Virus record (IMG/VR): IMGVR_UViG_3300031758_000210
Coordinates: 1-38,406 of that record
From: a virus
Length of the DNA: 38,406 nt
Reading direction: 5' to 3' (one strand)
Below, piece by piece: positions 1-36,743 of this stretch. Positions within the stretch are counted from its first letter, which is position 1. Every line of letters starts with the position of its first letter. Under the pieces are notes generated by a model. It saw only the letters and a program-made list of their open reading frames with translations, did not search any database and was not told where the DNA came from. The translations under genes were made by a program, and so were the position numbers.

Positions 1-118
1 TCTTTCCATTTTTCCCACCCTATTTCCCACCGTTCTTTCCATTTTTCCCACCCTATTTCCCACCGTTCTTTCCATTTTTCCCACCCTATTTCCCACCGTT
101 CTTTCCATTTTTCCCACC
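1..118 (+). repeat. 33-bp perfect tandem repeat (3.6 copies), coding
   Basis: Three identical 33-bp units (1-33, 34-66, 67-99) and a 19-bp partial unit (100-118) follow one another without mismatch. The unit is 11 codons and stays in frame with the Hint gene downstream, encoding repeats of FPFFPPYFPPF. The + strand is almost purely pyrimidine. The window begins inside the array, so the true copy number is unknown and could have been collapsed by assembly. Confidence 0.95.
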
Positions 119-659
119 AAGATTTGCCCCAGTGGGTCCTTATTTCCCAGCATGCCTAGATGAAAACACTTTAGTGTTAACTAACGAAGGAATGAAGCCA
201 GCTAAAGATATTAAGGTCGGGGATACATTATTAACAGTTGATGCATTAGGATTGTCTAATCAACCAAATGCAACCCCACTTGAAATTAATGTTAAAAATC
301 TTAATATAACAAACTTAAGATCTACACAGGTTACAAATGTAATTGTTTCTGATAAAACAGATAGAGTCTATTTTAATGAAAATACAGAAATTCAATTTAC
401 TGAAACTCACCCAATATTCGTAAAACGAAATAATGAATATCGTGTAGTAGAAGCGGGATCAGTTCAAGAGGGAGATATCATTATAATTATAAATATAAGT
501 CTCTTAAAAGAACAAATAAATATATCAGAAGTAATAACTGAAACTGTAATAAATAAAGTTGAAAAGAAAACTTTAGATGTTGCAAAAAATGTATATACGT
601 TTAGCTGTGATCCATATAATTGGTATTTTGCTGGAAATATATTAACTCACAATAAGTAG
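3..659 (+). CDS. Pro/Phe-rich repeat protein with C-terminal Hint (intein-like) domain, 5' partial
   Basis: The frame is open from base 3, so the gene starts before the window; the in-frame GTG at 132 is not a convincing start. The visible N-terminal part is FPFFPPYFPPF repeats, then RFAPVGPYFPA. A Hint domain of about 168 residues begins at Cys (codon 153-155). It shows splicing block A (CLDENTLVLTNEGMKPAKDIKVGDT in pieces: Cys1, then KVGD), block B (TETHPIF, with the TxxH motif) and blocks F/G (YNWYFAGNILTHN). The protein ends HNK-stop. Cys1, block B His and the terminal His-Asn are all kept, but there is no Cys/Ser/Thr after Asn and no real C-extein. It therefore resembles bacterial intein-like or Hedgehog-like autoprocessing domains more than a splicing intein. 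There is no room for a homing endonuclease. It lies next to a LamG gene and the portal, so a virion surface role is inferred. Confidence 0.8.
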   Translation, partial: FPFFPPYFPPFFPFFPPYFPPFFPFFPPYFPPFFPFFPPRFAPVGPYFPACLDENTLVLTNEGMKPAKDIKVGDTLLTVDALGLSNQPNATPLEINVKNLNITNLRSTQVTNVIVSDKTDRVYFNENTEIQFTETHPIFVKRNNEYRVVEAGSVQEGDIIIIINISLLKEQINISEVITETVINKVEKKTLDVAKNVYTFSCDPYNWYFAGNILTHNK

Positions 660-677: not shown

Positions 678-2528
678 ATGTCATATAAACTTAAAATATT
701 AAAAGACCATCCTATTGGATTTTGGCAACTTGATGATGTGGCTACAAATCCTACTTTTGACTTTACTGATATTTTAGAAAAATATGATACCTATCAAGAT
801 TTATTAGATGCATATGAAGACTATGCAAATATAAACTATTTTGCAGAAGATAGTTCTGGATGCTCTAATACTGGACTGTATGTCGGAACTTTTGATACTA
901 ATAAAAAATATTTTCCTTTATCTCCAGGAGGAAGATATTCTATAGATATAACATCATCTAAAAGTATAGATTTCCCAATAATTAATAGTTACTATAAAAA
1001 TAATGCACCTGGCGGTTTTGCTACAAGAGATTATGGAGATAATGATTTTACACTAGAATGCTGGATCTACCCAGAAATAACCACTAATTCTTTAACAACA
1101 ATATTTGCCGATAGTAGTAAAAATGTTGGCATATTTTACCAAAATGGAAATATCATTTTTAAATTAGATCAAGAACTTTTAGAATATACATTACCAATTA
1201 TAAATAAATCAATGCATATAGTTGCAGTATATTTAGTAACAGAAGCTCATTTATATATAGATGGCAAACTATCCATTAGTAAAACAATATCTTCTAATCC
1301 ATTTACCAATACTGAAATTTTATTAACCTCTGGGCCCACATCAAATTTAAACGATAAATTTTTAATAGACGATATAGCAGTATATAGATATGGTCTATCT
1401 AATATAAAAATATTAGATCATTATTATAATGATAGCTATACAAATCCATCTCAAATAATACAAGTAGACAATGGAGAAATTTTTGAATTTTACGATACAG
1501 ATATAAGTAAAGTTTTTTCTTATTCATATCCTTTAAATAGGCCCTGGCAAGAAGTCGTGACAGAAGATTTATATTATGACCAAACAAATCAATATATACA
1601 AATTAAAAAAAGTGGCGTACAAGAGTCTAAGTCTATTGTAATAGAAGATACAATATACTTACCAGCAGCAACTTCTATAAATTCTTCAAAAATAGATTGG
1701 TTTGGAGATAATGGAATTACTGTTGAAACTAGTATTAATGGAGAAGATTATGAATTGTGTATCAACGGACAGTCTATACCACAATACACCTCATTAAATT
1801 TTAACAATAGTAGAGTTTTAAATATAAAAATAACAATAGGCTCAACGGACATTTCTAAATATTTACCAAAATTATATAATTTAAATATTAGTTTTTATAA
1901 TAATCAAATTATGTATTCAAAAAATGGAACAAGCTATTTGTCAAAAATTGAAAATAAAGACTATTATTTAGGAGAAAATAAATACCCAATTTTATCTAGG
2001 GATCCAAGAAATGGAATATTGTGTCCAAGTAACTCTGGATTTAATATTAATTTATTTCAATTAAAACAATCAATAGAATTTTTTTATACACCATATAGTT
2101 TAAATAAAGGTCTACTAATTAGCTCAATTATAGATGAAGACGGGGCAGCCAGCGAATATTCATGGAATACAGATGGATCAATTAATCAAACTAACATAGA
2201 GTCTATTTATGTCAATGGTATAGATGTTTCTCTAGAAGATGACATATCTAATATATTTACATTAAACGATATACATCACGTTGTGATTAATTTTACAGAC
2301 CCTATATATGGGCTAGCAACAATCAACTACAAGTCATCTGGTTCAACAAAAGCCCTATATCAATATATGTCATTTTACCAGAATTCATTAAGTTATAATA
2401 CTATAATTAATCATTATCGTTTATATACCTCTAGAGACCTATATCAAACAAGTTATTCTTCCATGTTTATGTCAGAAAACTCAGTTAATCTATATAATAA
2501 TGACTGGATTGTGGTACAAAACTCATAA
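678..2528 (+). CDS. LamG/concanavalin-like minor tail or fibre protein
   Basis: This 616-residue protein starts at ATG 678 behind GGAGG at 663-667. Residues about 100-250 look like a LamG/concanavalin-type jelly roll: the segment DNDFTLECWIYPE, a strand with LYIDGKL, and the closing FLIDDIAVYRYGLSNIKILDHYY are typical. A second, weaker copy seems to occupy about residues 450-605, with SIEFFYTP, IHHVVINF and a closing INHYRLYTSRDLYQ. Such domains bind glycans and are common in phage tail fibres and minor tail proteins. It sits between the Hint protein and the portal gene, an unusual place for a fibre gene. Receptor or glycan binding is inferred from the fold only. Confidence 0.7.
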   Translation: MSYKLKILKDHPIGFWQLDDVATNPTFDFTDILEKYDTYQDLLDAYEDYANINYFAEDSSGCSNTGLYVGTFDTNKKYFPLSPGGRYSIDITSSKSIDFPIINSYYKNNAPGGFATRDYGDNDFTLECWIYPEITTNSLTTIFADSSKNVGIFYQNGNIIFKLDQELLEYTLPIINKSMHIVAVYLVTEAHLYIDGKLSISKTISSNPFTNTEILLTSGPTSNLNDKFLIDDIAVYRYGLSNIKILDHYYNDSYTNPSQIIQVDNGEIFEFYDTDISKVFSYSYPLNRPWQEVVTEDLYYDQTNQYIQIKKSGVQESKSIVIEDTIYLPAATSINSSKIDWFGDNGITVETSINGEDYELCINGQSIPQYTSLNFNNSRVLNIKITIGSTDISKYLPKLYNLNISFYNNQIMYSKNGTSYLSKIENKDYYLGENKYPILSRDPRNGILCPSNSGFNINLFQLKQSIEFFYTPYSLNKGLLISSIIDEDGAASEYSWNTDGSINQTNIESIYVNGIDVSLEDDISNIFTLNDIHHVVINFTDPIYGLATINYKSSGSTKALYQYMSFYQNSLSYNTIINHYRLYTSRDLYQTSYSSMFMSENSVNLYNNDWIVVQNS

Positions 2529-2531
2529 TTA

Positions 2532-2548
2532 TGTCAACTGTCTTGACA
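2532..2548. promoter_or_regulatory. Perfect inverted repeat TGTCAA-N5-TTGACA, possible operator or -35
   Basis: In the 63-bp gap before the portal operon, TGTCAA and TTGACA form a perfect 6-bp dyad with a 5-bp centre. The right arm equals the consensus -35 hexamer. I see no good -10 at 16-18 bp (the best is TAAGTA at 2567), so a promoter is not established. A repressor site or a small RNA hairpin are the alternatives. Confidence 0.35.
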
Positions 2549-2591
2549 ATATATGGACTTTAACCGTAAGTAATGGTAGAATTGAGACCTA

Positions 2592-2927
2592 ATGGATATT
2601 AAAAATGTTAATCAAAAAGTAATAGAGGAAACAACTCTAGGAATATATGTGTGGGAAATGCCAGACGGAAGATGGATTGGCGATGACGATGGCAATTTTC
2701 TATCAATAACATCTAAAAAAGGCAACCGCTCAAAAATGGACACATTAGCAAAAGCCGTAAGATCTTATGGAATTTATGAGGGACAGCCTAAATTTTTATC
2801 AGGCAGACGTAAAATTGATGATGAAGAATTTGAATATCAAAAACAAAGATTAGATTGGGGACTAACACCAGACCCACTAGATATTGGTGTATATAAAGAT
2901 TCAATTAAAAATGGAGGAAGACCATAA
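2592..2927 (+). CDS. Hypothetical protein immediately upstream of portal
   Basis: A 111-residue, highly charged, soluble protein with no signal peptide or membrane segment. The N-terminal half has strand-like stretches (IYVWEMPDGRWIGDDDGNF) and the C-terminal half is rich in Lys, Arg, Asp and Glu. No Shine-Dalgarno of note precedes the ATG. Its stop overlaps the portal start by one base (TAATG), so the two are translationally coupled. I do not recognise the family. Its position suggests a packaging or portal-associated accessory role, but nothing in the sequence proves this. Confidence 0.7.
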   Translation: MDIKNVNQKVIEETTLGIYVWEMPDGRWIGDDDGNFLSITSKKGNRSKMDTLAKAVRSYGIYEGQPKFLSGRRKIDDEEFEYQKQRLDWGLTPDPLDIGVYKDSIKNGGRP

Positions 2928-4513
2928 TGGAGTTCATTAACGACGACACAGATCCTACACAAAATATAGATATATCAAACTCTGCCGACTGGATGAGATT
3001 TAACAGCAAAGAAGTTGTAGTAGACAATGATCCATTTAGTATTGGAGAAGCAGAGTTAAAAAAAGTTAATGGTCTTGGAACAAGTTTTCGTAGAAAGATG
3101 TCTAGAGAATTTTCTAAAAGATTTATCGGTCAAGATGGAACTGGAACACAGCAGAATTTATTGCAGCAGGCAGTTACGGGATATGCAATGTTCGATCTCG
3201 TTCAACCAGTATACAACCTAGAATATCTATCAAAGATTTATGAAATATCTCCTTATAATTACGCAGCAATTAATGCAAAAGTTGCAAATATTGTAGGGCT
3301 TGGGTATACGTTCGTAGAAACAAAAAAAGCAAATGATGCACTAGACAATATTTCAGATGAAAAACAATTAGATAGGGCACGTAGAAAATTAAATAAGCTT
3401 CGTCAAGATTTAGATTATTGGCTAGAAGAAACAAACGAAGAAGAAACATTTACAGAAACATTAATTAAAGCCTATACAGATTTAGAAGCTACTGGTAATG
3501 GCTTTATTGAAATTGGTAGAACCACTGCTGGCAATATAGGATACATAGGACATATCCCAGCAAAGACTATGCGTGTTCGTCGTTTGCGTGATGGATTTAT
3601 TCAATTGCTATATGGTAAGGCTGTATATTTTAGAAACTTTGGAGATCAAGAAACCCCTAATCCAATAGCGGATGGAACAGATAGACCAAATGAAATTATT
3701 CATTTAAAGAAATATACTCCAATGAATAATTACTACGGGCTACCAGATATAGTTGCAGCACAAACATCAATGGCTGGAAATGAATTTGCTGGTAAATATA
3801 ATTTAGACTATTTTGAAAATAAAGCAGTTCCACGATATGTTATTACTGTAAAGGGAGCAAAGCTTTCCCCAGAATCCGAAAGAAAATTATTAGAATTTTT
3901 CCAGGTAGGATTAAAAGGTAAAAATCATAGATCGTTATATGTACCGCTTCCACCAGACAGCCCAGACTCAAAGGTTGAATTTAAAATGGAGCCTATTGAG
4001 GCAAGCTCTCAAGAGTCTTCATTTAATGTTTACCGAAAGGCAAATAGAGACGAAATATTATTAGCTCACAGAGTTCCTATTAATAAAATAGGAGTTCCAG
4101 AAGGAATTAGTCTAGCATCTGCAAGAGACGCAGATAAAATGTTCAAAGAGCAGGTATGTCGTCCAGCACAGGATATTTTAGAGAAGAAATTAAATAGAAT
4201 TATTTCTGAAAAAACAGATGCCTTAATTCTTAAATTTAATGAATTAACCCTAACTGACGAAGATACTCAATCTAAAATTGATGAACGTTATTTAAGAATG
4301 CAGGTAATTACTCCAAATGAAGTTAGAATTAGAAAGGGTATGGTGCCTAGGGATGGCGGAGATAATGTTGTTGATTTAAAAGCTCAAGGGGCAGCCGAAC
4401 AAACCGCTCAAGCAATGAATTCTAGAAATAGGACTCAGGAGAGATCTGCAAATTCACCAGATATTTCTGGGGAGGCCAGAAATCCAAAAGGTGAGGGTCG
4501 AACCACTGCTTAA
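2927..4513 (+). CDS. Phage portal protein
   Basis: This 528-residue protein has the features of the PBSX/HK97-like portal family, which forms the dodecameric ring for DNA entry and connector attachment. The core runs from about residue 75 (YEISPYNYAAINAKVANIV) through DLEATGNGFIEIGR, IGHIPAKTMRV and IIHLKKYTPMNNYYGLPDI. It continues to ANRDEILLAHRVPINKIGV near residue 385, the clip/wing-to-stem pattern seen in portals. The last 40 residues (from about 485) are low in complexity, rich in Gln, Arg, Asn and Gly, and probably disordered. The gene overlaps its upstream neighbour by one base and precedes the protease gene, the standard order. The terminase that normally precedes a portal gene is not directly upstream; fibre-like genes occupy that position. 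Confidence 0.93.
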   Translation: MEFINDDTDPTQNIDISNSADWMRFNSKEVVVDNDPFSIGEAELKKVNGLGTSFRRKMSREFSKRFIGQDGTGTQQNLLQQAVTGYAMFDLVQPVYNLEYLSKIYEISPYNYAAINAKVANIVGLGYTFVETKKANDALDNISDEKQLDRARRKLNKLRQDLDYWLEETNEEETFTETLIKAYTDLEATGNGFIEIGRTTAGNIGYIGHIPAKTMRVRRLRDGFIQLLYGKAVYFRNFGDQETPNPIADGTDRPNEIIHLKKYTPMNNYYGLPDIVAAQTSMAGNEFAGKYNLDYFENKAVPRYVITVKGAKLSPESERKLLEFFQVGLKGKNHRSLYVPLPPDSPDSKVEFKMEPIEASSQESSFNVYRKANRDEILLAHRVPINKIGVPEGISLASARDADKMFKEQVCRPAQDILEKKLNRIISEKTDALILKFNELTLTDEDTQSKIDERYLRMQVITPNEVRIRKGMVPRDGGDNVVDLKAQGAAEQTAQAMNSRNRTQERSANSPDISGEARNPKGEGRTTA

Positions 4514-4568
4514 TTATTAGGCAACTAGTTATTTGCCTTTTTATATATACAAAGATAAAATTAAGCAT

Positions 4569-5876
4569 ATGAATATTGAAAAATCTTATTGGTCCAGCAA
4601 TGGCGATGATATCAGTTTATCTATTCCTTTCACAAAAGTCAATCGTGAAAAGAGAACTGTCTCTGGTTTTGCGACACTAGACAACATTGATCAAACAGGA
4701 GATGTTGTAACTGCAGAGGCCAGCTTAAAAGCTTTTGAAAACTTTAGAGGAAATATCCGTGAGATGCACGGATCAAATGCAGTCGGTAAAATGGTTTCAT
4801 TTAAACCAGAAACTTACTATGACCCAAAGTCAGGTGAATTTTTTAACGGAGTATATGTAGACGCATATATCTCAAAGGGCGCACAAGACACCTGGGAAAA
4901 AGTTTTAGACGGAACACTACAAGGATTTTCAATTGGCGGAAAAATTGTGGATTCAGAGAATGAAGTAAATAAGTCTACAGGAAATCCAGTAAGATTTATT
5001 AAAGAGTATTCATTGATTGAGCTATCAGTAGTAGACTCACCAGCAAATGAATTATGTAATATTTTATCTATTCAAAAAATGAATGGACAATTAATTTTTA
5101 AAGGAATAGCAGCAGATACTGTTACGGAAAATATTTTTTATTGTGAAGATAGCGATTCCGTATTCATGTCAACAGACGCAACTTATACCTCACCAGTAAC
5201 TGGTAAATTAGCAAGTTTAATTGGTTGGGTAGAAAGTAACGATGTTAATAAAGCAAAAGAAATAGAAAAGATTCTTGCTTCATTCAAGAAGTCAAGATTA
5301 ACGTTGCCTGAAACACAAATAGCAAAACAGGCAAACGCAGAAGGAGGTAATGAAGTGTCAGAAAACACAGAAACAGTAGCAGTAGAAGAAACTGCTCCAG
5401 TAGAAGTTTCAAGCGCTGCAGAGGCAGTAATTGAAAAAGCTGTTACAGAAGATGTAGTAGCCGAAGATACTTCTGCCGAAACCGTTGAAAAAGCAGCAGA
5501 CGTCTCAGAAGTCGTCGTTGATGAACCTGATTTTGCAAAAATGTTAGGTGACCTAAAAGGCTTTTTCTCAGAAACTCTAAGCAAAGCTTCAGAAGCAAAT
5601 GCAGCACAAGTTACAACTATTAAAGAAACAGTTGAATCTTTTAGCAAGAGCGTAGAAACTAGAATTTCAGAGTTGGCAGAACAACACTCAGAACTCAGCA
5701 AAACTGTTGAGAACATCAAGAACACGATTGATGGTGTAGAAAAGCGTGTCGATGCAGTAGAATCAGAGACTGCAATTAAGAAGTCCTCAGACCTTGGCGG
5801 GTCTAGGGAAGTAAAAATCCAAAAATCAAAATGGAACGGTTCTTTCCTCGGTTCCGTAAACGAACTATTTAAATAA
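4569..5876 (+). CDS. XkdF-like prohead protease fused to scaffold-like C-terminus
   Basis: The N-terminal ~165 residues match the XkdF/prohead serine protease type. They include VSGFATLDNIDQTGDVV, a His in REMHGSNAVGK, LQGFSIGG with the candidate nucleophile Ser, and YSLIELSVVDSPAN. After a linker, the part from about residue 260 is very acidic, rich in Glu, Val and Ala, then coiled-coil (about 335-410), ending in a basic tail (KSKWNGSFLGSVNELFK), like a scaffolding protein. The ORF can be extended to a TTG at 4533, but ATG 4569 begins a more family-like sequence; neither has a strong ribosome site, so the start is uncertain. The protease would cleave scaffold and capsid N-termini during head maturation. 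Portal lies upstream and capsid downstream. Confidence 0.88.
   Translation: MNIEKSYWSSNGDDISLSIPFTKVNREKRTVSGFATLDNIDQTGDVVTAEASLKAFENFRGNIREMHGSNAVGKMVSFKPETYYDPKSGEFFNGVYVDAYISKGAQDTWEKVLDGTLQGFSIGGKIVDSENEVNKSTGNPVRFIKEYSLIELSVVDSPANELCNILSIQKMNGQLIFKGIAADTVTENIFYCEDSDSVFMSTDATYTSPVTGKLASLIGWVESNDVNKAKEIEKILASFKKSRLTLPETQIAKQANAEGGNEVSENTETVAVEETAPVEVSSAAEAVIEKAVTEDVVAEDTSAETVEKAADVSEVVVDEPDFAKMLGDLKGFFSETLSKASEANAAQVTTIKETVESFSKSVETRISELAEQHSELSKTVENIKNTIDGVEKRVDAVESETAIKKSSDLGGSREVKIQKSKWNGSFLGSVNELFK
5343..5348 (+). promoter_or_regulatory. Strong internal Shine-Dalgarno inside protease gene
   Basis: AAGGAGGT spans 5341-5348, seven bases before an in-frame GTG at 5355. It is one of the best ribosome sites in the window, better than those of most gene starts, although it lies mid-gene. 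The encoded residues (Glu-Gly-Gly) could place it there by chance, but the spacing and frame favour a real internal start. Confidence 0.7.
5355..5876 (+). CDS. Nested in-frame scaffolding protein
   Basis: Initiation at GTG 5355 would make a 173-residue protein identical to the C-terminal part of the protease ORF (residue 263 onward). Its sequence is scaffold-like: an acidic low-complexity N-terminus (SENTETVAVEETAPVEV), a helical coiled-coil segment and a short basic, aromatic C-terminus that could bind capsid protein. This copies the known lambda C/Nu3 arrangement, where scaffold is translated from an internal start in the protease gene. The start is supported by AAGGAGGT at 7-base spacing. 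No separate scaffold gene exists between protease and capsid, which fits this reading. Independent expression is inferred. Confidence 0.7.
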   Translation: MSENTETVAVEETAPVEVSSAAEAVIEKAVTEDVVAEDTSAETVEKAADVSEVVVDEPDFAKMLGDLKGFFSETLSKASEANAAQVTTIKETVESFSKSVETRISELAEQHSELSKTVENIKNTIDGVEKRVDAVESETAIKKSSDLGGSREVKIQKSKWNGSFLGSVNELFK

Positions 5877-5896
5877 AGGGTAGGTGAAATAAATAA

Positions 5897-6949
5897 ATGA
5901 GCAATGAATTATTAGAAAAAGCAGTAGCTGCCGATACGACAGTAACTGGTACATTTGCTTCAGCAACTGGAGGAGAAGGAATCCACACAGGGTCAGAAAA
6001 TGGCAACGGTGGTCTTCTTAATCCAGAACAGTCAGCTCGATTCCTAGACTATATGTTCGACGCAACCGTAATTGGTAAAGTCGCACGTACCGTCAGAATG
6101 AAGTCTGATACAACTGAAATTGATCGCATGGGCGTAGGCGAAAAGCTTATGAAACTTGCGACAGAAGGAGATAACACAAACAGCGACAACGCTGCAGTGA
6201 CATTCTCAAAGATTTCTTTGACAACAAAGAAGTTACGTCTAGATTGGGAACTTTCAACTGAGTCTCTAGAAGACAATATTGAGGGTGCAGATCTAGAAGA
6301 TCACATTGCACGTCTAATGGCAACACAAGCTGGTAACGACATTGAAGATTTGGTTCTTAACGGAAACACATCTCTATCATCTGATCAGCTTTACAAGGCA
6401 TTTGACGGAGCAGTTAAGCTTTCAAAGACAAACGGTCACGTAGTTGACGCAGGTGGAGATACAATCTCCCGTGCAGTATTTAATGATGCGCTTAAGGCTC
6501 TTCCACGTAAATACAAGCAACGCCGTACAGACCTACGTTTCTTGTCAGGTTCAAACTTGATTCAAGATTACTTATATGCAACTTCACAAAATATCCAAAA
6601 CGTTAACCCACAAGATATTGCTTCTGGCATTATTCGTGGTGAGGTAGCACCTGTATCTGGCCCAGCTGGATATGTAGCTCCATACGCATTTGGTATTCCA
6701 ATCGTTGAAGTTCCATTACTAAATGAGACACAAACTGGCTCATACTCAGGAGCAACAGGATCACACGGTGACGTCCACTTGACATTCCCAAATAACGTAG
6801 TTATTGGTATCAAGCGTGATGTAACTGTATACCGATTCTTCTGGCCAAAGAAGGACTCAATCGAGTACACAATGTATACTCGTGTTGGCGTTCAAATTGA
6901 GCAAGCAGATGCTTGGGTAGTAGTAAAGAACGTAAAGGTTGCTTCTTAA
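5897..6949 (+). CDS. Major capsid protein (HK97 fold)
   Basis: A 350-residue protein after the protease/scaffold gene, with the layout of an HK97-type capsid protein. A flexible N-terminus is followed by LNPEQSARFLDYMFDATVIGKVARTVRM (N-arm to E-loop), LDWELSTESLEDNIEGADLEDHIARLMA (spine helix) and late P-domain strands ending in YTMYTRVGVQIEQADAWVVVKNVKV (in pieces). ATG 5897 is preceded by TAGGTGA at 5881-5887. Arg is mostly CGT/CGC here, unlike the AGA-rich neighbours, as expected for a very highly expressed gene. An intrinsic terminator follows directly, so the gene ends its transcription unit. Cleavage of the N-terminus by the upstream protease is plausible but no site is evident. Confidence 0.92.
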   Translation: MSNELLEKAVAADTTVTGTFASATGGEGIHTGSENGNGGLLNPEQSARFLDYMFDATVIGKVARTVRMKSDTTEIDRMGVGEKLMKLATEGDNTNSDNAAVTFSKISLTTKKLRLDWELSTESLEDNIEGADLEDHIARLMATQAGNDIEDLVLNGNTSLSSDQLYKAFDGAVKLSKTNGHVVDAGGDTISRAVFNDALKALPRKYKQRRTDLRFLSGSNLIQDYLYATSQNIQNVNPQDIASGIIRGEVAPVSGPAGYVAPYAFGIPIVEVPLLNETQTGSYSGATGSHGDVHLTFPNNVVIGIKRDVTVYRFFWPKKDSIEYTMYTRVGVQIEQADAWVVVKNVKVAS

Positions 6950-24290: not shown

Positions 24291-26186
24291 ATGTCAGCAT
24301 ATCAAGATCTGCTAAAAGACACATCGGTTGCTGTTGAAGACGGCAACTATTTTATAGTAACAGTCGCAGATCTAAATTTAAATACAACATATCCAATTCA
24401 ATTTAGATGGAAATATAAAGATGGCACATATGGGCTATGGGGTGCTACTAAAATAATAACAACAACTGGAGAAATTGTGCCAGGCAGACCAAATCTTGGA
24501 GTTTCTGATGTTGTTGGAGATAAAGGGTTTATTAAAGTTACTTGGAATGGAAATGATAGTTCTGGGAAACCAATAACAAACATAGATAGAGTTGATATAT
24601 ATATAGATGGTTCTCCATTTAATGGATTAAAACCAGCTGGTAGCTTTAAAACTTCAGGAACACAAACAATTGCCGCACCAGCAGGACAATACATAGTTGC
24701 CTTGTATGCAGTAACTAATTATGGAAGTACGTCTCCTGTAAGCACTTCAAGAACAGTAACTGTGGCTGATGCTGGACAGACAATAATTAGTCCAGAAAAC
24801 CCAGATGTTCCAACATTAACTGCAGGGCTAGCATCAATTATTGTTTCTTGGAATGGTAAAAAATTAGTCGATGGCGTTGCCAGCAATTTTTCTGAAGGGG
24901 CTTTTGCAAGCGCTAAGGTTTATGTAGGAACCTCGGCTGAGTTTGTTACAAGTGATAATAATTGGGTTCATTCATTAAACTTTGCAAACGGAACTAATCA
25001 AGTATCAATTGGAGTTGGAACTGTAATTGATAAATCGCTTGGGACAAAATTAGAATATGGTGTGCCATATTACGTTAAGATTAAAACTGTAAATGCTGCA
25101 GTACCACCAGTTGAAACATCAACAGCAGTTTCTTCTAGCCCAACAAATATTACAGTTGATAAGGTAGCAGCAAGCGAAATTAAAACAGGATTCCTTTCAG
25201 CAGATGCACAAATACTTGCTGGAATTAGTGGCGGAGCAAGAGTAGAATTATCAGGATCTACAACACCATTTGTAATATATGGAACTGGCGGACAAGAGTT
25301 ATTAAAATTTATTTCAAGCCCAACCCCAAGCTTAACAGTTAATGGAGGAGGAATATTTACTGGAGATCTTTCAGCAGGATCAGGGACTTCAATATTTAAA
25401 TCAGATTCAAGCGGAATATATTTAGGAAATGAAACATTTGGATTAGCCCCATTTAGTGTATCTAGAAACGGTACATTGAAAGCACAATCTGGAACAATTG
25501 GTGGATGGCAAATATCAGGAAGCTATTTACAGAATACTACTGGCACATTTCAGATAAATAGTAATGACTCCGCTATGTATTTAGGAAGTCCAGATTCAAG
25601 TCATATAAGATTTACTCCTTCTCAAATTGCACACTATAACGGATCGGGATCTCCTAGTGGTAAATTTACTTTAACAACATCTAATGGGGCTTTAACCCTA
25701 TCAGGAGATATTGTTGGATCTAGTATATTCGGATCTACGGTAACATCTTCATCTTCTGCCAGCGGAAGAAGAACAGTGTTAGATTCTTCAACAAATGCTA
25801 TTTCTTTTTATGACTCTGACTCACAAGCAATAGCACATATATCACCACTAGACTCACACAACGGGCTTCTTATTTCAACTGGAGGGGCACCGTCATCCAC
25901 ATTTATCAATGGATCTTCTCCAAAAATTGGACTTTGGAAATATGGCACAGGTGGATACCTTAACATTCAATTAAGTGATCAATTTGATGGTCTTACTATA
26001 AGTGGAAGTGACGGTTACACAGAATTAACTACAGGTAAAACCAATGTTGCGGACAGTGTAATAAATGCACAATCGCTAAGACCAATTGCAGCTATATCAA
26101 ATTCAGTTTTTGGAGGAGCATCAACAATTAATCAATCCTGGCCTGCTAATCAAGAAGGCCTTATCATGTTAGTATACAATCCATAA
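24291..26186 (+). CDS. FnIII-containing tail fibre protein
   Basis: A 631-residue protein one base after the previous stop. It has at least two fibronectin-III-like domains (about 40-155 and 160-290; GRPNLGVSDVVGDKGFIKVTW, SPVSTSRTVTV). A beta-repeat shaft follows, with segments SGTIGGWQISGSYLQNTTGT and MYLGSPDSSHIRFTP typical of host-specificity or central fibre shafts. The C-terminus (ATINQSWPANQEGLIMLVY-like) may be the tip. It overlaps the next start by one base, TAATG. Confidence 0.7.
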   Translation: MSAYQDLLKDTSVAVEDGNYFIVTVADLNLNTTYPIQFRWKYKDGTYGLWGATKIITTTGEIVPGRPNLGVSDVVGDKGFIKVTWNGNDSSGKPITNIDRVDIYIDGSPFNGLKPAGSFKTSGTQTIAAPAGQYIVALYAVTNYGSTSPVSTSRTVTVADAGQTIISPENPDVPTLTAGLASIIVSWNGKKLVDGVASNFSEGAFASAKVYVGTSAEFVTSDNNWVHSLNFANGTNQVSIGVGTVIDKSLGTKLEYGVPYYVKIKTVNAAVPPVETSTAVSSSPTNITVDKVAASEIKTGFLSADAQILAGISGGARVELSGSTTPFVIYGTGGQELLKFISSPTPSLTVNGGGIFTGDLSAGSGTSIFKSDSSGIYLGNETFGLAPFSVSRNGTLKAQSGTIGGWQISGSYLQNTTGTFQINSNDSAMYLGSPDSSHIRFTPSQIAHYNGSGSPSGKFTLTTSNGALTLSGDIVGSSIFGSTVTSSSSASGRRTVLDSSTNAISFYDSDSQAIAHISPLDSHNGLLISTGGAPSSTFINGSSPKIGLWKYGTGGYLNIQLSDQFDGLTISGSDGYTELTTGKTNVADSVINAQSLRPIAAISNSVFGGASTINQSWPANQEGLIMLVYNP

Positions 26187-28441
26187 TGCCTCAATTTATT
26201 AATAAGGGTGGTTCATGGAAAACAATAATTGATGGATATATCAATTTAAATGGTTCATGGAAAAAAATTATAAATGGATTTATAAATGTATCTGGATCAT
26301 GGAAATCATTTTGGTCAGCTGGGCTAGTTCCAGTAATTTCTGAACAGGTTGAAATTATCAAAACAACTAATGCAAATGGCACTATAAGATTAACTGGTAG
26401 AAACTATAATTGGACAAATTTTAATAGTGGAATTTATTTATTTCAAAAATATAATTTAGATTTTACAACATGGGTTGTTCCTGAAATGGATTCAGGTAAC
26501 ATTACAAATCCATCTGTTGGATCAGTAAATACTAAAACGTACGACGTACCTCAGTCTAATATGTACCCAAATAAACAAAATCAATTTAGATTTTCAGTTA
26601 CAGCAACATCATCAAACAATAATTCAACAACCTCAGATTCTGACCCAATAACATTTGAAATGCCAAGAGATATTACTAACTTAACATATAGTCAAAGTGA
26701 GTATAATGCAGTCACGGATAACTATTCAATAAGTTTTACATGGACCCCATCACAACATTCTGGATCTCAAGTAATACAATATAAACAATCCTCAAGTAGT
26801 ACATGGCTAGACTGGGTAACAGTAGATGGTTCAACTGGATCTGGAGGAGTTGGAGCATTAAATGAAGGAACACAATATGATTTTAGAATACTTCCGTGGA
26901 CAGGAACATCTGCAAATGGATATTATGGTAACTTTTCAAATCAAATAAGTGGAACTACATTAACTTCTAATAAACCAGGAAAACCAATTAACTTATCTGT
27001 AAGTAATATTACAACAAATAGTTTAACATTTAGTTGGCAGGCTAACCCAATTGGCGGGGTACCAACAGGATACATTTGGGCAATTACTACAAGCAACGCT
27101 CCTCCAGATGGAGGCAATTACCCTTCAGGAGGATACAGTTCAACTAGCACAGAAGTTACTGGATTACTTCAAAATACACTTTATTATTTATGGGTTGGTG
27201 CTGATAACTATTTTGGATTTTCTGGTTTTGAATCCACAACTGCACAAACTCTAACGGCAACAATAACACCAGGAACTCCACAAAATTTAAGTCATACAAA
27301 AGACTATTCAAATCAAAGAATAAGTACTAGCCTTGAAGCAATTTCCACAAGTTATAAAATACAAAGATGGACTTGGGGCGCAGATGCTAATTATTATCTA
27401 ACCTGGTCGGCTGCATCAGATGCTTCATTTTATGAAATATCATATAATACTACAGACTCAAACACAGGAATTGCTTCTTACACATCAAATACTACAAGCC
27501 TAACAGACACTAACGGTCTTTTAACTAACAACCCTATAACACGTTATTATTGGGTTAGAGCGGTATCTTCGGACGGCACAAGAGGATCCTGGAGCTCTAG
27601 TACTGGAAGCACAGCAGTATTAACTAATTCAACAAATGCAACAATTAGATTGTATCGGTGTGATGGAAGCGCATTTAGCTCCAATACAGTTCCGTTACTT
27701 GATCAGGGTTATGAATGGACTGGAGTAAATACTTCATTTACTCATTATGCTTATATATCTGCAACGGTAGGCGGAGTAGCAGTTAACTTTAGCTCTACAA
27801 TCTGTGTACCAGAAGGAGGTACAGTTACTCCAGCCGTTACCCCAGCGGTTACCCCAGCGGTCACTCCAGCGGTATCACCAGTTTCACCTCCTACAATTAC
27901 GTCACTAACTGCATCAGCACCTACGACATCATCTACACAATTAGTAACAGTATCAGTAAGTTGGTCTTCTACAAGTCAAGCGTCATATTTCTTAAATGTA
28001 TTGCAACCATTTGTTGCTAATTATTTAGACTATGGAACTACTGAAACTAGTTCTTCTGTATCTGATTCGGGATCATCGTTTCAGGTTTATTCGGGAGCTG
28101 AAGTTTCTATTTCATTAACAGTATATAATGGAGCAAATCAAACAGGAGGTTCTGCTTCAAGTTCAATATCATATACACCACCAATTTCTGCATCAGTCAC
28201 TCCAGCAGTTACTCCAGCCGTTACTCCAGCCGTTACTCCAGCCGTTACTCCAGCGGTTACTCCAGCCGTTACTCCAGCCGTTACTCCATCGGTATGTATA
28301 GAATATAGATATACATGTAAGAGTTACGATGTAACAAACCCTGCAAGTAATAATTATTATACATGTTTTTCACCAGGAGCATGTGATGCGTATAATAACT
28401 CAGACGGATCCAGGGCAATATGTTGTGCTCAATATTCATGA
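26186..28441 (+). CDS. FnIII fibre with GSWK repeats, TPAV repeats and Cys-rich tip
   Basis: A 751-residue modular protein. Residues 1-45 hold three GSWK repeats (NKGGSWKTIIDGYINLNGSW, then IINGFINVSGSWKSFW), a docking-like motif. FnIII-like domains follow (about 65-165, 165-265, 270-355, 360-490). Residues 547-562 and 671-702 are TPAV repeat linkers flanking an Ig-like domain (TITSLTASAPTTSSTQLVTV). The C-terminal 48 residues have six cysteines and may form a disulfide-knot tip. The 12-bp DNA repeats could change copy number, altering linker length. It is the last and most variable-looking fibre gene, a candidate receptor-binding protein, followed closely by oxygenase genes. Confidence 0.75.
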   Translation: MPQFINKGGSWKTIIDGYINLNGSWKKIINGFINVSGSWKSFWSAGLVPVISEQVEIIKTTNANGTIRLTGRNYNWTNFNSGIYLFQKYNLDFTTWVVPEMDSGNITNPSVGSVNTKTYDVPQSNMYPNKQNQFRFSVTATSSNNNSTTSDSDPITFEMPRDITNLTYSQSEYNAVTDNYSISFTWTPSQHSGSQVIQYKQSSSSTWLDWVTVDGSTGSGGVGALNEGTQYDFRILPWTGTSANGYYGNFSNQISGTTLTSNKPGKPINLSVSNITTNSLTFSWQANPIGGVPTGYIWAITTSNAPPDGGNYPSGGYSSTSTEVTGLLQNTLYYLWVGADNYFGFSGFESTTAQTLTATITPGTPQNLSHTKDYSNQRISTSLEAISTSYKIQRWTWGADANYYLTWSAASDASFYEISYNTTDSNTGIASYTSNTTSLTDTNGLLTNNPITRYYWVRAVSSDGTRGSWSSSTGSTAVLTNSTNATIRLYRCDGSAFSSNTVPLLDQGYEWTGVNTSFTHYAYISATVGGVAVNFSSTICVPEGGTVTPAVTPAVTPAVTPAVSPVSPPTITSLTASAPTTSSTQLVTVSVSWSSTSQASYFLNVLQPFVANYLDYGTTETSSSVSDSGSSFQVYSGAEVSISLTVYNGANQTGGSASSSISYTPPISASVTPAVTPAVTPAVTPAVTPAVTPAVTPAVTPSVCIEYRYTCKSYDVTNPASNNYYTCFSPGACDAYNNSDGSRAICCAQYS
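27824..27871 (+). repeat. 12-bp TPAV-coding repeat, first block
   Basis: Four 12-bp units (GTTACTCCAGCC-type, with one to three changes) encode VTPA each; a fifth degenerate unit (27872-27883, VSPV) follows. Confidence 0.9.
28196..28291 (+). repeat. 12-bp TPAV-coding repeat, second block
   Basis: Eight 12-bp units encode seven VTPA and one final VTPS. Several units are identical and others differ only at GCC/GCG/GCA, so the block looks recently expanded. Confidence 0.93.
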
Positions 28442-28871: not shown

Positions 28872-29101
28872 CAGAAAAAAGTAAATGGCAACAATATAAA
28901 GAAAAAAATGGCACAACTCCATTAGACCTTTTAAATCCACACGTTAAAATTGCCACAGACGATATTAAAAATAATAGAATGCAAATATGTTACTCATGCC
29001 CAGAATTAATAAAATTAACAACACAATGCAAACAATGTGGATGCCTTATGAAATTAAAAACTAAACTAGAAGAATCAAAATGCCCAATAGGTAAATGGTA
29101 A
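28868..29101 (+). CDS. Small zinc-ribbon-like protein (DUF6171-like)
   Basis: A 77-residue protein with a clear C-terminal cysteine pattern: ICYSCPELIKLTTQCKQCGC then KTKLEESKCPIGKW. The CxxC, CxxCxC and final CP-x-GKW correspond to a small family of phage and bacterial proteins that I associate with DUF6171. Metal binding is likely; the molecular role is unknown. It is coupled to both neighbours (ATGA upstream, TAATG with the oxygenase downstream), so it may serve the oxygenase operon. Confidence 0.75.
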   Translation: MTEKSKWQQYKEKNGTTPLDLLNPHVKIATDDIKNNRMQICYSCPELIKLTTQCKQCGCLMKLKTKLEESKCPIGKW

Positions 29102-29706
29102 TGTTTGAAAAAGAAGAAATTGCTCCTGGTATTGTAATATATAGAAACATAAAAAACTCATATTTAAATTTTATAGAAGATATAGAAGAGTCTTTATCGT
29201 TAAATGAAACAGGATTAAATTGGATTGAGCCACATATTTTAAAAGATGGAAAAGATGTTATAGATTATAGCGTAAGGAATTTACATGTATTTCATTGTTC
29301 TTACCCAAAATTAAAAAAGATAGAGCCAGAAAATGTTAAAGAAATATTTGATTATAATTTAGGAAAAAAACTTTATGAATTTATGCACCCAGTTGAAGAA
29401 GACTATAAATCAATGTACGGAGTTAAAACAAAAACACATGACTCTTATCAATTATTAAAATATGGAGAAGGACATTTTTTTTCAAATCATTTAGATGATG
29501 ATTTAACATATCCAAGAACAATTTCAACCGCATGGTATATAAACGATAACTATAAAGGAGGAGAAATCAATTTCCCAAGATTTAATTTATCTTATAAGCC
29601 AGAAAAAAATTCTATGTTGATATTTCCATCAACTTATGTATACAATCATTCAGTAAATAAAGTATATAACGGCACAAGGTATGCCGTAGTTAGCTGGCTT
29701 GATTAA
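29101..29706 (+). CDS. 2-oxoglutarate/Fe(II) oxygenase, prolyl-4-hydroxylase-like
   Basis: I chose ATG 29101 (TAATG overlap); an in-frame ATG at 29095 is possible. The C-terminal half has the double-stranded beta-helix signature: YQLLKYGEGHFFSNHLDD with the iron ligands H130 and D132, distal ligand H183 in YVYNHSV, and the 2-oxoglutarate Arg at about 193 in GTRYAVVSW. The segment AWYINDNYKGGEINFP is typical of the prolyl-4-hydroxylase family. It would hydroxylate a protein, using 2-oxoglutarate and oxygen. Pro-rich repeats in the fibre directly upstream (VTPA) are possible substrates, which is inference. Confidence 0.85.
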   Translation: MFEKEEIAPGIVIYRNIKNSYLNFIEDIEESLSLNETGLNWIEPHILKDGKDVIDYSVRNLHVFHCSYPKLKKIEPENVKEIFDYNLGKKLYEFMHPVEEDYKSMYGVKTKTHDSYQLLKYGEGHFFSNHLDDDLTYPRTISTAWYINDNYKGGEINFPRFNLSYKPEKNSMLIFPSTYVYNHSVNKVYNGTRYAVVSWLD

Positions 29707-30277: not shown

Positions 30278-30490
30278 ATGCAACTTACTAAAGAAGAAAA
30301 AATAGCTATTATTGGACAGCATATTAAAAATTTAGAAAATAGCAAATACAATATTGAATTATCTATTGTTGAAGAAAGCTCTATTACAAGTCCTAACTTA
30401 GCAGCTCTATCTAATTTAAACGATGAGATAGAGAAAATTGTTACAAAAATTTCAGCTTTAAATTCAGAAAAAACAAAACTAGAAGCATAG
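30278..30490 (+). CDS. Small coiled-coil protein
   Basis: A 70-residue helical protein with heptad-like stretches (EKIAIIGQHIKNLENSKYNI and LNDEIEKIVTKISALNSEKT). It has the best ribosome site of the accessory region (AGGAGGT) and its own promoter. No membrane segment. Size and position match small coiled-coil proteins next to phage tail genes, but I cannot name a role. Confidence 0.75.
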   Translation: MQLTKEEKIAIIGQHIKNLENSKYNIELSIVEESSITSPNLAALSNLNDEIEKIVTKISALNSEKTKLEA

Positions 30491-30496
30491 GTTAAA

Positions 30497-30670
30497 ATGG
30501 AAAAAGCAGAATTAATTATCACGGCTCTACAGCAACGAATGGGTGAACTGGTATCAAATTATGAAACTCAAATTGCAATATTACGTGCAGAGATTACACA
30601 GCTTATGGAAAAGGAAAATGCTAAAGCTAAAGAAGAATACTCAGAGCATCTTAATAACCTCTCCGACTGA
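30497..30670 (+). CDS. Small coiled-coil protein (57 residues)
   Basis: ATG 30497, six bases after the previous stop, opens a 57-residue ORF: MEKAELIITALQQRMGELVS, NYETQIAILRAEITQLMEKE, then a charged tail ending HLNNLSD. Strong heptad-like spacing of hydrophobics makes it a clear coiled coil. It continues the preceding coiled-coil gene and overlaps the next gene in another frame by about 50 bases. The two small coiled-coil proteins could pair; this is inference. Confidence 0.72.
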   Translation: MEKAELIITALQQRMGELVSNYETQIAILRAEITQLMEKENAKAKEEYSEHLNNLSD

Positions 30671-31016
30671 TTTTCCTTCAGGCATTGCTGTTAAAACAGA
30701 CAAGGGCACCTACTGGATTAAAGATGGGAAAAGGTATAAATTGATATCTAAGAGAGCAGAAGAGTCTTGGTCTTTTACTACAGTAAATGCTACAGAATCA
30801 GCATTATCTTTGATTAAGCAGTCTGGCAAATTAGGATTTAGAGATGGCGCTTTGATCAAGAACATTGCAGATGGTAAAATGTATTTAATATCGCAAAATA
30901 AAAAGCGTCATATTGTGGACCCAGATTCATTCTCTAAATATGGACTTAATAGGTCTAAGGTAGTAGAGGTCAGTGAGTCAGAGATAAATTCACATGAATT
31001 AGGAGAAAATTTATAA
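30618..31016 (+). CDS. Surface-type repeat protein, hypothetical
   Basis: The likely start is ATG 30618 (MLKLKKNTQSILITSPTDFP); the longer GTG form at 30543 would duplicate sequence already used by the 57-residue gene in another frame. The body contains two related beta segments, GIAVKTDKGTYWIKDGKRYK and GALIKNIADGKMYLISQNKK followed by RHIVDPDSFSKYGL. This resembles small repeats of bacterial extracellular proteins of the DGxLI...VYxI.xGxKR type. A virion or cell-wall-related role is suggested. The gene is followed by a TAATG overlap. Confidence 0.6.
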   Translation: MLKLKKNTQSILITSPTDFPSGIAVKTDKGTYWIKDGKRYKLISKRAEESWSFTTVNATESALSLIKQSGKLGFRDGALIKNIADGKMYLISQNKKRHIVDPDSFSKYGLNRSKVVEVSESEINSHELGENL

Positions 31017-31444
31017 TGGCAGCAAATTGGAAAGTTGTAACATTTAATGAGGGTGCCCCATTTGACCCTAATGATTTAAATCAATTACAGTCAAATTTAA
31101 CAGACGTTTTTACAAAATCTACAAGTTTATTAAATGCTACAAAAGATGCTAGCGGTCAAAATAGAGTAGCAGTTTCTGATCAAGGATCAGAATCAGTAAC
31201 ATTAAAAGGAACAACTCCCGTATCCGTAGCAGTAACATTTACACCATCTTTTATTGCTGGATCAGAAACTGGATTTGTTGCCTCTATGGGACAAGCGTTA
31301 ACTGCATCAACAGGTGTTGTTTCAGTCGCTACAGTACTAAATGCAGATAAAACAGGTGGAACAATATATGCCGTAAGCAATAACTCCAAAGCTACAATGT
31401 TAGTAAATATTAATTGGATGGCCACACAACTTAAAAATATTTAA
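31016..31444 (+). CDS. Small structural (tail/fibre-tip-like) protein
   Basis: A 142-residue beta-rich protein. The N-terminus NWKVVTFNEGAPFDPNDLNQ, then LQSNLTDVFTKST, resembles the start of small phage fibre or tip proteins with an N-terminal helix before a beta domain. The C-terminal part is Thr/Ser/Ala-rich beta. It is coupled by TAATG to the upstream gene and closes the accessory operon. A promoter-terminator unit follows immediately. Assignment is from style, not from a diagnostic motif. Confidence 0.6.
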   Translation: MAANWKVVTFNEGAPFDPNDLNQLQSNLTDVFTKSTSLLNATKDASGQNRVAVSDQGSESVTLKGTTPVSVAVTFTPSFIAGSETGFVASMGQALTASTGVVSVATVLNADKTGGTIYAVSNNSKATMLVNINWMATQLKNI

Positions 31445-31447
31445 TGC

Positions 31448-31475
31448 TTGACAGATCAAAAGAATATGTTAAAAT
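31448..31475 (+). promoter_or_regulatory. Near-consensus promoter
   Basis: TTGACA (31448-31453) is a perfect -35, with 16-bp spacing to TAAAAT (31470-31475), itself preceded by TGT, an extended -10. The -35 overlaps a small dyad, TTGA-N4-TCAA (31448-31459). This is the strongest promoter by consensus in the window; transcription should begin near 31482. Confidence 0.75.
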
Positions 31476-31490
31476 ATAGCATGTTCTATA

Positions 31491-31514
31491 AAGTCACGAA
31501 ACCGTGACTTTTTT
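31491..31514 (+). terminator. Intrinsic terminator just downstream of promoter
   Basis: AAGTCACG (31491-31498) pairs perfectly with CGTGACTT (31503-31510), loop AAAC, followed by a run of T through 31514. Only about 9 bases separate the predicted transcript start from the stem. Confidence 0.88.
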
Positions 31515-31530
31515 AATTTAAGGATATTAG

Positions 31531-32346
31531 ATGTCTAATGATTTAAAGTGGATGCTGTCTTCAGATCAACAATTTCCATATCAAGATAATAAAGCAATTG
31601 AGCTTTGGTTTAAGGTAATGAAATGGTTTAAGCCAGATGTCGTAGACTATCTTGGAGATACAGATGATCAGGCATGCTACAGTAAATATACAGATGGCAA
31701 GCCAACAGAGTTTATTAAAGCATATAAAGATGATAACGTAACAAATGATTTAGAGTTAATGCTTAAAGACATGAAATTAGAGGCAAGTGGTGCTCGTGAA
31801 TTTTATGCTAGAACAAGAAAGATGCTCCCAGACGCACAATTATTTTCTGCATTAGGAAATCATGATATTAGAATTTTTGATTATTTAGATAAAAAAATCC
31901 CAGAGTATGCAAAGCATGTAACACCAGAAGCCTTGTGGAGTTTAGATTCTTTAGGGTATGACTATATTTATTATAATGAATTGCCTAAGCGTAGATTTGG
32001 AGATATCCACGTACACCACGGCATGTCAGTTTCAGCCACTGGTGCAATTAGAAAAGATATGGAAGACCTTCAGATCTCATTAATTCGTGGACACTCACAT
32101 AGAATTGCTTCACATATGGTAACATATGAATTAAGAAACAAGGGTAAAGGTGAAACAATTAGAGGCTATGAAATTGGACACATGTGTGACGAAAAGGGTC
32201 CAGGTATGAAGTATACTCAACACCATGATTGGCAAAAAGGATTTGCTGTTGCTCATATTGAGAATGGAAAATACCCTCACGTTAATATGATACATATATC
32301 ACCAGACTACACATGCGTTGTTGATGGAAAGCTGTTTACTTTATAA
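31531..32346 (+). CDS. Calcineurin-like metallophosphoesterase
   Basis: A 271-residue protein with the metallophosphoesterase motifs in order. SSDQQFP replaces the usual DxH, and is followed by VVDYLGDTDD (GDxxD), SALGNHDIR (GNHD), VHHGMS and RGHSHR (GHxH). These residues bind two divalent metals. Phage members hydrolyse phosphoesters, including nucleic acids or nucleotides; the actual substrate is not evident. It begins behind AAGGA (31520-31524) after the promoter-terminator unit and heads the replication-side genes. It overlaps the zinc-ribbon gene by one base (TAATG). Confidence 0.85.
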   Translation: MSNDLKWMLSSDQQFPYQDNKAIELWFKVMKWFKPDVVDYLGDTDDQACYSKYTDGKPTEFIKAYKDDNVTNDLELMLKDMKLEASGAREFYARTRKMLPDAQLFSALGNHDIRIFDYLDKKIPEYAKHVTPEALWSLDSLGYDYIYYNELPKRRFGDIHVHHGMSVSATGAIRKDMEDLQISLIRGHSHRIASHMVTYELRNKGKGETIRGYEIGHMCDEKGPGMKYTQHHDWQKGFAVAHIENGKYPHVNMIHISPDYTCVVDGKLFTL

Positions 32347-32531
32347 TGTGGTGCGGTAAATGTTCTGGAAGAGTATTCGTAGATAGAGTTTTTTCTCAAA
32401 AACTTCATGTAGAACTATTTTGTATTCTATGCGGAAAACGATGGATGATTAATAAAGAAACGAATAGATTTGGAAAATGGTTAGAAAAAAAGGATCGAGA
32501 GTACGCAAAAAATTTCTCTATTTCTTCTTAA
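32346..32531 (+). CDS. Small zinc-ribbon protein
   Basis: A 61-residue protein with two CxxC pairs, WCGKCSGRVF and FCILCGKRW, spaced 22 residues apart, as in a treble-clef or zinc-ribbon fold. The C-terminal third is basic and helical. It is coupled to the phosphoesterase gene and overlaps the next gene by 55 bases. Zinc binding is likely; the partner (DNA, RNA or protein) is not visible. Confidence 0.75.
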   Translation: MWCGKCSGRVFVDRVFSQKLHVELFCILCGKRWMINKETNRFGKWLEKKDREYAKNFSISS

Positions 32532-32956
32532 ATAATAAATTACATAAAGTAATTAGATTATCTAGAGCTAAAGATGAAGTTGTTGCATGGTGCTACCCAG
32601 ACAAAAAAAGAGTTATGTACTCGTATTCAGATGCAGAAAAGAATATGGAGACTGCTTATACAATTAAGCAAACAGGACAAATACTTGGTAGACATAAAGT
32701 TACAATTGAAGAATATATACTTCAAGGTAAAATTTCTATACCACAAAAGGTTTATCCTATAAGTAATCCAGAAAGCTCATGGTATAAATTTATGCTTAGT
32801 GAATCTGATATATTTAAATTACATGAATATATACTAGAGGCTGGGTACACAAAGGATTTACCTTCAAAAGCAGAATTACGGGCACTTCTCAAAAACAACA
32901 TTATATTGTATACTAAGACCGATTCTGGATTTGTACCAGTATGGAAGGCGGAGTAG
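32477..32956 (+). CDS. Helix-turn-helix DNA-binding protein (MerR/excisionase-like)
   Basis: A 159-residue basic protein. Residues about 55-85 (TAYTIKQTGQILGRHKVTIE, then EYILQGKI) form a winged HTH of the HTH_17/MerR type, in which a Tyr/Thr-rich helix is followed by a recognition helix. The first 40 residues are basic (VRKKGSRVRKK, VIRLSRAKDE). The 55-base overlap with the preceding gene is unusual but the start MVRKK... is backed by continuous, charged sequence; an alternative start is the Met near residue 47. It is the best candidate for a phage transcription regulator in the window; the operators are unknown. Confidence 0.68.
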   Translation: MVRKKGSRVRKKFLYFFLNNKLHKVIRLSRAKDEVVAWCYPDKKRVMYSYSDAEKNMETAYTIKQTGQILGRHKVTIEEYILQGKISIPQKVYPISNPESSWYKFMLSESDIFKLHEYILEAGYTKDLPSKAELRALLKNNIILYTKTDSGFVPVWKAE

Positions 32957-33066
32957 TGTCTAGCAGATTTGTTGTATGTGATATTTGCAACAAAGAGATA
33001 GAATTGCGCTGGGCTATTTTTGGAAGCGATACTTTAAGTAGGCATAGAAAGGCGGAGCACAAGTGA
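32956..33066 (+). CDS. 36-residue C2H2-like zinc finger protein
   Basis: GTG 32956 overlaps the preceding stop by one base (TAGTG), with GGAG four bases upstream. The 36-residue product has VCDICNKEIELRW followed by TLSRHRKAEHK, a CxxC...HxxxxH pattern like a classical C2H2 finger. The stop overlaps the next gene's GTG (GTGA). The tight coupling on both sides supports a real gene. Nucleic-acid binding is a plausible role. Confidence 0.68.
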   Translation: MSSRFVVCDICNKEIELRWAIFGSDTLSRHRKAEHK

Positions 33067-33266
33067 CAACAGTTGTTAAAATCGACTTATCATTTACTAG
33101 AAATCTTGGTAATTTTGAAAGTATTAAAATTGGAGTTGGGGTAGAAGACTCTGTCAGAGATGGAGAAACTGTTAATGATGCTACAGAAAGAGTATATAAA
33201 TTTGTTGAAGATAAGCTAATAGAAAAAACTCAAGAAGTCGAGAAAGAGTTAAAGAGTGGCAAATAG
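33063..33266 (+). CDS. Small hypothetical protein
   Basis: A 67-residue protein starting at GTG 33063 inside the preceding stop (GTGA). The N-terminal part is a beta hairpin-like segment (VVKIDLSFTRNLGNFESIKI); the C-terminal half is an amphipathic helix (ERVYKFVEDKLIEKTQEVEK). I have no recognised family name. It sits in the replication operon and overlaps the next gene by 11 bases. Confidence 0.65.
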   Translation: MTTVVKIDLSFTRNLGNFESIKIGVGVEDSVRDGETVNDATERVYKFVEDKLIEKTQEVEKELKSGK

Positions 33267-36023: not shown

Positions 36024-36032
36024 GACCATACA

Positions 36033-36733: not shown

Positions 36734-36743
36734 TTTAATAATC

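Follow-up and report, generated by a model that had tools for sequence, protein, structure and literature searches.

What does a Hint domain do at the very end of a phage repeat protein, where a single lysine is all that follows its terminal His-Asn? The question is raised by the first open reading frame (positions 3-659, plus strand) of a 38,406-nucleotide stretch of viral DNA, hereafter the window, from IMG/VR record IMGVR_UViG_3300031758_000210. The frame is open at its 5' end and encodes 218 amino acids ending in NILTHNK and a stop codon. An initial annotation had proposed a Hint autoprocessing domain on a Pro/Phe/Tyr-rich repeat protein, an observation that profile, sequence and fold comparisons confirm. 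In the translation, Cys1 is residue 51 of the protein (P0001; codon TGC at 153-155, followed by LDENT), and the block B motif TETH and the terminal His-Asn-Lys are all present. Positions 3-152 encode the 3' part of a repeat stalk and a linker ending in RFAPVGPYFPA, the 50 residues upstream of Cys1 being FPFFPPYFPPF repeats plus that short linker, PRFAPVGPYFPA; the Hint domain, from Cys1 to Asn, and the single Lys occupy 153-656, and the stop codon TAG lies directly behind HNK at 657-659. Here we argue that this domain may act in the manner of A-type bacterial intein-like (BIL) domains, as a C-terminal autoprocessing module that releases a stalk of the phage surface or tail-fiber type, a reading to which we give roughly an even chance.

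The remainder of the gene, whose recovery had been recommended, was found on an overlapping IMG/VR contig of 76,885 bases (G001), which matches the window without a single mismatch across 19,656 bases and with 2 mismatches across the rest (18,750 bases); the window represents a fragment of the same viral genome. The complete gene (L097:89-1003) encodes 304 amino acids in the order MPKRNRG leader, PASTA domain (PF03793, E 1.7e-5, exceeding its cut-off), (FPFFPPYFPPF)n repeat with linker, Hint domain and HNK-stop, the leader and PASTA domain lying outside the window. On the overlapping contig the repeat DNA is a 33-nt tandem array of 3.9 copies with 100% matches. Repeat and linker together comprise 56 residues (24 P, 23 F and 4 Y); the 'long' segment first described is short in this gene. 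The gene make-up as seen from the window was likewise incomplete, with neither the PASTA domain nor the second, Fn3-type gene discussed below. The neighborhood was described correctly: the next gene (678-2528, plus strand) encodes a LamG-like (concanavalin A-like) protein (Laminin_G_3, PF13385, E 1.7e-10), and is followed on the same strand by genes for the portal protein (2927-4513; Phage_portal, PF04860, E 1.1e-33) and the major capsid protein (5897-6949).

A profile search against Hint families, the check proposed at the outset, returned matches, although every score of the window protein falls below the curated Pfam or NCBIfam cut-off, a point against the autoprocessing reading: Intein_splicing (PF14890) gives E 9.4e-7 and 29.2 bits against a cut-off of 35.8 bits, Hint (PF01079) E 0.0024 and TIGR01445 (intein_Nterm) E 0.0035. 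Among 16 related records, the PF14890 match exceeds the cut-off in 4. In a PDB search, a profile built from 26 relatives gave a Clostridium thermocellum BIL domain as its first match (E 1.5e-4). An AlphaFold2 model (mean pLDDT 86.7, pTM 0.82) was placed by Foldseek closest to 2lwy, the C. thermocellum BIL domain that we take to be A-type (E 5.4e-8), 6y75 (BIL2) and the gp41-1 intein, and a second structural aligner (VIA) gave Z-scores of 17.4 for BIL2, 17.2 for the RecA intein and 17.1 each for 2lwy and Hedgehog, which amount to ties. The likeness to Hedgehog and BIL proteins claimed earlier is thus borne out, with BIL domains the nearest folds and inteins and Hedgehog tied with them on structural Z. 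Together with this homology, the autoprocessing reading draws support from the register of the domain ends: in the alignment to the RecA intein, the first pair joins model residue 14 (Cys1) to position 1, and the last joins residue 180 (Asn) to position 440, presumably the last residue of that intein.

The window protein has the features of the Hint superfamily, namely the fold, the block A Cys/Ser, the block B TxxH and the terminal His-Asn; we assume that the block labels A, B, F and G carry over to these Hints. In block F, the usual Asp appears, on the same assumption, to be replaced by Thr (VYTFSC), a change that might weaken the chemistry and that counts to that extent against autoprocessing. 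Within the superfamily, a class 1 intein lies between two exteins with C/S/T at +1, whereas one Lys and a stop follow the Hint domain at all 45 loci described below; a Hedgehog-type (Hog) domain has an acceptor-recognizing region C-terminal of the Hint, and here the chain ends at HNK. A-type BIL domains are defined by a C-terminal His-Asn and by placement in variable regions of non-conserved proteins (PMC7765530). His-Asn is found in 26 of the 26 rows of our alignment A3 and is absent from two sequences outside it (L147 and L149). The usual C/S/T nucleophile at +1 is lacking, as had been noted, Lys standing in its place in all 26 rows while the core catalytic residues of the window Hint are kept, and the C-terminal module differs among 48 Fn3-type loci.

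A stop so close behind the domain could have arisen by sequencing error. A pattern scan of viral_contigs gave 55 matches, 45 of which encode relatives, and a second scan with alignment A1 recovered 45 loci on the same contigs. The C-terminal end is HNK-stop at 45 of 45 loci (TAA in 29, TAG in 16), including two that are truncated on their N side (L045 and L046). Because G001 agrees with the window and all 45 loci end alike, the stop is real and the error that had been envisaged is ruled out. The same constancy bears on two other possible origins: a selfish intein left behind at the end of a gene, and a true intein in which a premature stop conceals the C-extein. Phages often carry inteins, and examples occur among the fold matches; yet 168 residues from Cys1 to Lys are too few to accommodate a homing endonuclease, the stop keeps its position (45/45), the next gene has its own start, and Hint-less relatives show no continuing C-extein. 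We regard either origin as very improbable. An intein with a lost C-extein was rejected on the constant stop and the normal start of the next gene, and a split intein with the LamG gene as partner was rejected too, the LamG protein starting with MSYKLK and giving no Pfam Hint match at E values up to 1.

Relatives of the domain were confined to viral sequences in our scans: among stretches of genome_contigs matching an A1-derived pattern, 0 of 217 were cellular relatives, and for the capsid protein the count was 0 of 22. A divergent lineage (L047, L053 and L054; 30-41% identical) also ends in HNK-stop, and one further locus (L124) ends in HNKKGF. A scan with the L047 Hint found 3 loci including L047 itself, and one with the L124 Hint found its own contig only. 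Against named phages, tblastn of the L124 Hint returned Phage NCTB only, and neither the Fn3 part nor the PASTA part found anything by the same method.

Codon-level conservation was analyzed at 41 of the 45 loci, excluding L004 and L045-L047; these yield 22 distinct Hint alleles. Cys1, the block B Thr and His, a block F Cys, the terminal His and Asn, and Lys +1 are invariant in 22/22, and codons vary synonymously at every one of these positions except Asn, which is always AAT. The median pairwise dN/dS of the domain is 0.21 (226 usable of 231 pairs), which together with the invariant residues argues for the autoprocessing reading. On a 25-row tree, parsimony gives at least 5 synonymous changes and 0 replacements at the Lys codon, and 4 changes of type with 0 shifts of place at the stop codon. 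Under neutral substitution, the chance of 5 synonymous changes out of 5 would be roughly 0.00003 to 0.0012 for kappa from 1 to 6, a figure derived from changes counted by parsimony on a tree of weak resolution, 6 of whose 22 inner branches are starred. Since the codons for Lys and for the stop vary but the Lys itself never does, the one-residue tail is probably under selection.

An invariant Lys with a stop fixed behind it is also what could be expected if the domain splices a single residue, Lys +1 taking up the thioester through its alpha amine after Asn cyclization, or through its epsilon amine before, to leave the stalk joined to Lys directly or by an isopeptide link. The HNK-stop of L047, L053 and L054 and the HNKKGF of L124 fit such a reaction, and ligation has reportedly been seen for a BIL domain without nucleophilic side chains. 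The gain from one added Lys is not obvious, however, and 7 of the 8 jumbo-phage Hints read have T, V or A at position +1, followed by 6 to 9 more residues; we hold one-residue splicing to be decidedly unlikely.

The domain is not tied to one carrier. Searched with A1, 10 of 25 records have two copies and 15 have one. The ten two-copy records encode open frames of 410-449 and 307-329 amino acids, some 8 to 9 kb apart, which the loci read identify as an Fn3 form (fn3, PF00041, E 3.8e-10 in L005) and a PASTA form; the second gene of these related phages thus combines Fn3 domains, repeat and Hint-HNK. Parsimony on the Hint tree, with rows L047, L053 and L054 labeled Fn3 by default, gives three changes of carrier between PASTA and Fn3. 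Because well-supported branches force only one of these, the Hint may have moved between the two genes.

The C-terminal ends of these proteins differ widely. A search with the Fn3 part returned 48 loci, many on contigs that also bear one of the 45 HNK loci: 17 end in Hint-HNK, 1 in Hint-HNKKGF and 2 in degenerate Hint-like tails (L147 and L149) that lack Cys1, have His-Asp instead of His-Asn and are probably inactive; 16 have Cys-rich tails instead of a Hint (L128, L130-L138, L140, L142, L144-L146 and L148), 10 stop within the repeat or directly behind it, and 2 are truncated by a contig end. YCWxC is common to 9 of 10 distinct Cys-tailed Fn3-repeat proteins. A scan with the Hint-less PASTA part of L101 found 2 loci, including the query, and both PASTA genes consist of stalk and Cys-rich tail without a Hint. 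As the Fn3-type ends differ and PASTA genes without a Hint exist, the Hint is one of several exchangeable, separable C-terminal modules, and Hint-less stalks occur naturally; this separability counts in favor of the autoprocessing reading. In the phage carrying the L101 gene (L101:17229-17675), the Fn3 copy retains its Hint. The window itself encodes, at 26186-28441, a 751-amino-acid protein with PAVTPAVTP repeats followed by a Cys-rich C-terminal end, a plan like that of repeat plus Cys tail.

Some relatives suggest that the domain could be a structural or assembly part of the virion, with no chemistry at all. SLEQ replaces TxxH, so that the block B His is missing, in 4 of the 26 A3 rows (L047, L053, L054 and L124; the L124 row begins after Cys1, which was taken from a reading of the locus), and L147 and L149 lack both Cys1 and the terminal Asn. 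These six sequences weigh against autoprocessing: since they retain the domain, a Hint can outlast full catalysis, and since other relatives end Hint-less or Cys-rich, the chemistry is dispensable in the wider protein family. In the clade of the window, by contrast, purifying selection has preserved the core residues in all 22 alleles, and we hold a purely structural role to be unlikely.

Our preferred reading is autoprocessing, and would run as follows. A virion or tail-fiber stalk protein, made up of PASTA domain and Pro/Phe repeat, would bear at its C terminus a module of the A-type BIL sort. From the computed fold, residues, conservation and modularity we infer an N-S acyl shift, release or transfer of the stalk, and Asn cyclization. 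Cys1 would attack at the Ala-Cys junction (often Arg-Cys in relatives) to form a thioester; hydrolysis would be the simplest way to resolve it and would separate the stalk from the Hint domain, and Asn cyclization could remove the Lys at the end. Processing would leave a mature chain with the repeat at its C terminus, as in some of the natural Hint-less relatives. BIL domains are described as lacking the +1 nucleophile and as mostly cleaving (PMC7664689), in line with release.

As the initial annotation had proposed, the thioester could instead react with a nucleophile, for example an amine, of another molecule such as a virion protein, a neighboring stalk or a cell-surface component, so that the stalk would become covalently attached. 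Hedgehog and BIL chemistry offer precedents, BIL2, one of the nearest folds, is described as forming an isopeptide bond to a Lys amine via a thioester (PMC8616854), and the Cys-rich tails that relatives carry at 16 of 48 loci could also cross-link. No acceptor site or acceptor-recognition region is visible, however, Lys and a stop following directly on the Hint, and we consider such transfer somewhat unlikely. Rather more doubtful on our assessment is a built-in acceptor, in which the amine of the invariant Lys would allow the Hint to cap or cross-link the C terminus of a Pro/Phe stalk that is possibly prolyl-hydroxylated.

Hydroxylation enters the picture through the gene content of these phages. 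Matches to 2OG-Fe(II) oxygenases (PF13640) number 9 in G001, 7 of them between its two Hint genes, and because they cluster there the prolines of the stalk may be hydroxylated. This run lies at L096:12447-18976 (G001 30447-36976), and another match is found at 29095-29706 of the window. All 14 records with repeat proteins that were examined have PF13640 matches, from 3 to 11 in each. Four other phage records served as a control, small and uneven as it is: three had none, and Phage NCTB had two, one above the cut-off.

Upstream of the Fn3-Hint gene, G001 encodes tail-fiber-like proteins (PHROG tail families). Its gene order of glycosyltransferase, ribonucleotide reductase, LamG-like protein, small gene, portal, protease and capsid is that of the Stanwilliamsviridae phages Gilson and Comrade, the two Streptomyces phages read, the glycosyltransferase and reductase having been named by eye; the window preserves the part from LamG-like protein to capsid (678-6949), and in both phages a LamG-like homologue occupies the same position near the portal gene. 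The interval between reductase and LamG holds an endolysin gene alone in Gilson and Comrade, and tail-fiber-like, Hint and oxygenase genes in G001. The best-ranked named relatives of the capsid protein, at about 58% identity, are from Streptomyces phages (6 of 214 records fall in the 60-80% band), a match that makes an actinobacterium a plausible host.

Terminal Hints and BIL chemistry are already known. Our searches of the open literature found no description of a terminal Hint on phage PASTA or Fn3 repeat proteins, of a tail of one Lys, of Pro/Phe stalks with PASTA or Fn3 domains as carriers, of tails exchangeable for one another, or of the oxygenase cluster. If the domain is active, intein-type chemistry would here serve the maturation or covalent attachment of a virion surface and not selfish insertion, and protein ligation would benefit from a Hint that is short, self-contained and equipped with a Lys acceptor. 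Were the Lys-acceptor reading true, it would represent a new virion-maturation chemistry, with Hint and Cys-rich tails as interchangeable coupling modules. A clean comparative system is offered by the conservation of the one-residue tail together with relatives that naturally lack the Hint or bear a Cys-rich tail.

Among known systems, the C. thermocellum BIL domain resembles the window Hint most closely, as the top match in both profile and Foldseek searches (VIA Z 17.1) and in its terminal His-Asn; the window Hint, without C/S/T at +1, differs from BIL domains in a C-flank of one invariant Lys plus stop and in its carrier, a phage PASTA or Fn3 protein with a Pro/Phe repeat. Tetrahymena BUBL1 BIL2 (6y75, 6tmm) has the highest structural Z, tied with the others within 1, and sits between two ubiquitin-like domains, whereas nothing follows Lys in the window protein. 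The Hedgehog Hog Hint (1at0) shares the C-terminal place, and its product is the N-terminal part, but the window Hint lacks a sterol-recognition region and retains the terminal HN. Two UniProt entries from uncultured Caudovirales phage, A0A6J5NY54 (PASTA_pknB, 301 aa) and A0A6J5MFV5 (Fibronectin type III, 424 aa), carry the same domain names at similar lengths and match the Hint by fold (E 2.3e-11 and 5.2e-12); their names are silent on a Hint, and the comparison is one of name, length and fold match.

Finally, tblastn of the window Hint returned 56 named records, 7 of which were read. The Hint of a Ruminococcus phage (L051) was considered as polymorphic-toxin-like; it has 126 residues after HN and a different make-up, and is of another kind. 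The other six (Dickeya AD1; Erwinia Y3, SNUABM_5 and Alexandra; Yersinia fHe-Yen9-02; Phage NCTB) each encode a collagen-like protein whose terminal Hint is extended by a short tail behind HN, and two of them are annotated 'contains intein domain'. Phage NCTB has two further Hint proteins nearby, one large and not collagen-like, the other a stand-alone Hint ending in HNKVD (L049:6483-6944), the exception among the eight jumbo-phage Hints read, whose gene lies between the collagen-like-Hint gene and a collagen-like tail fiber gene. Dickeya AD1 is described as having a 'hairy Myoviridae' form (PMC6143709); any connection of this form to the collagen-like Hint proteins would be speculation on our part. 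These jumbo-phage Hints are only about 19-29% identical to that of the window and follow collagen-like instead of Pro/Phe repeats, yet they present the same overall design, a repeat-bearing virion or tail protein that ends in a Hint domain, its His-Asn and a short tail.
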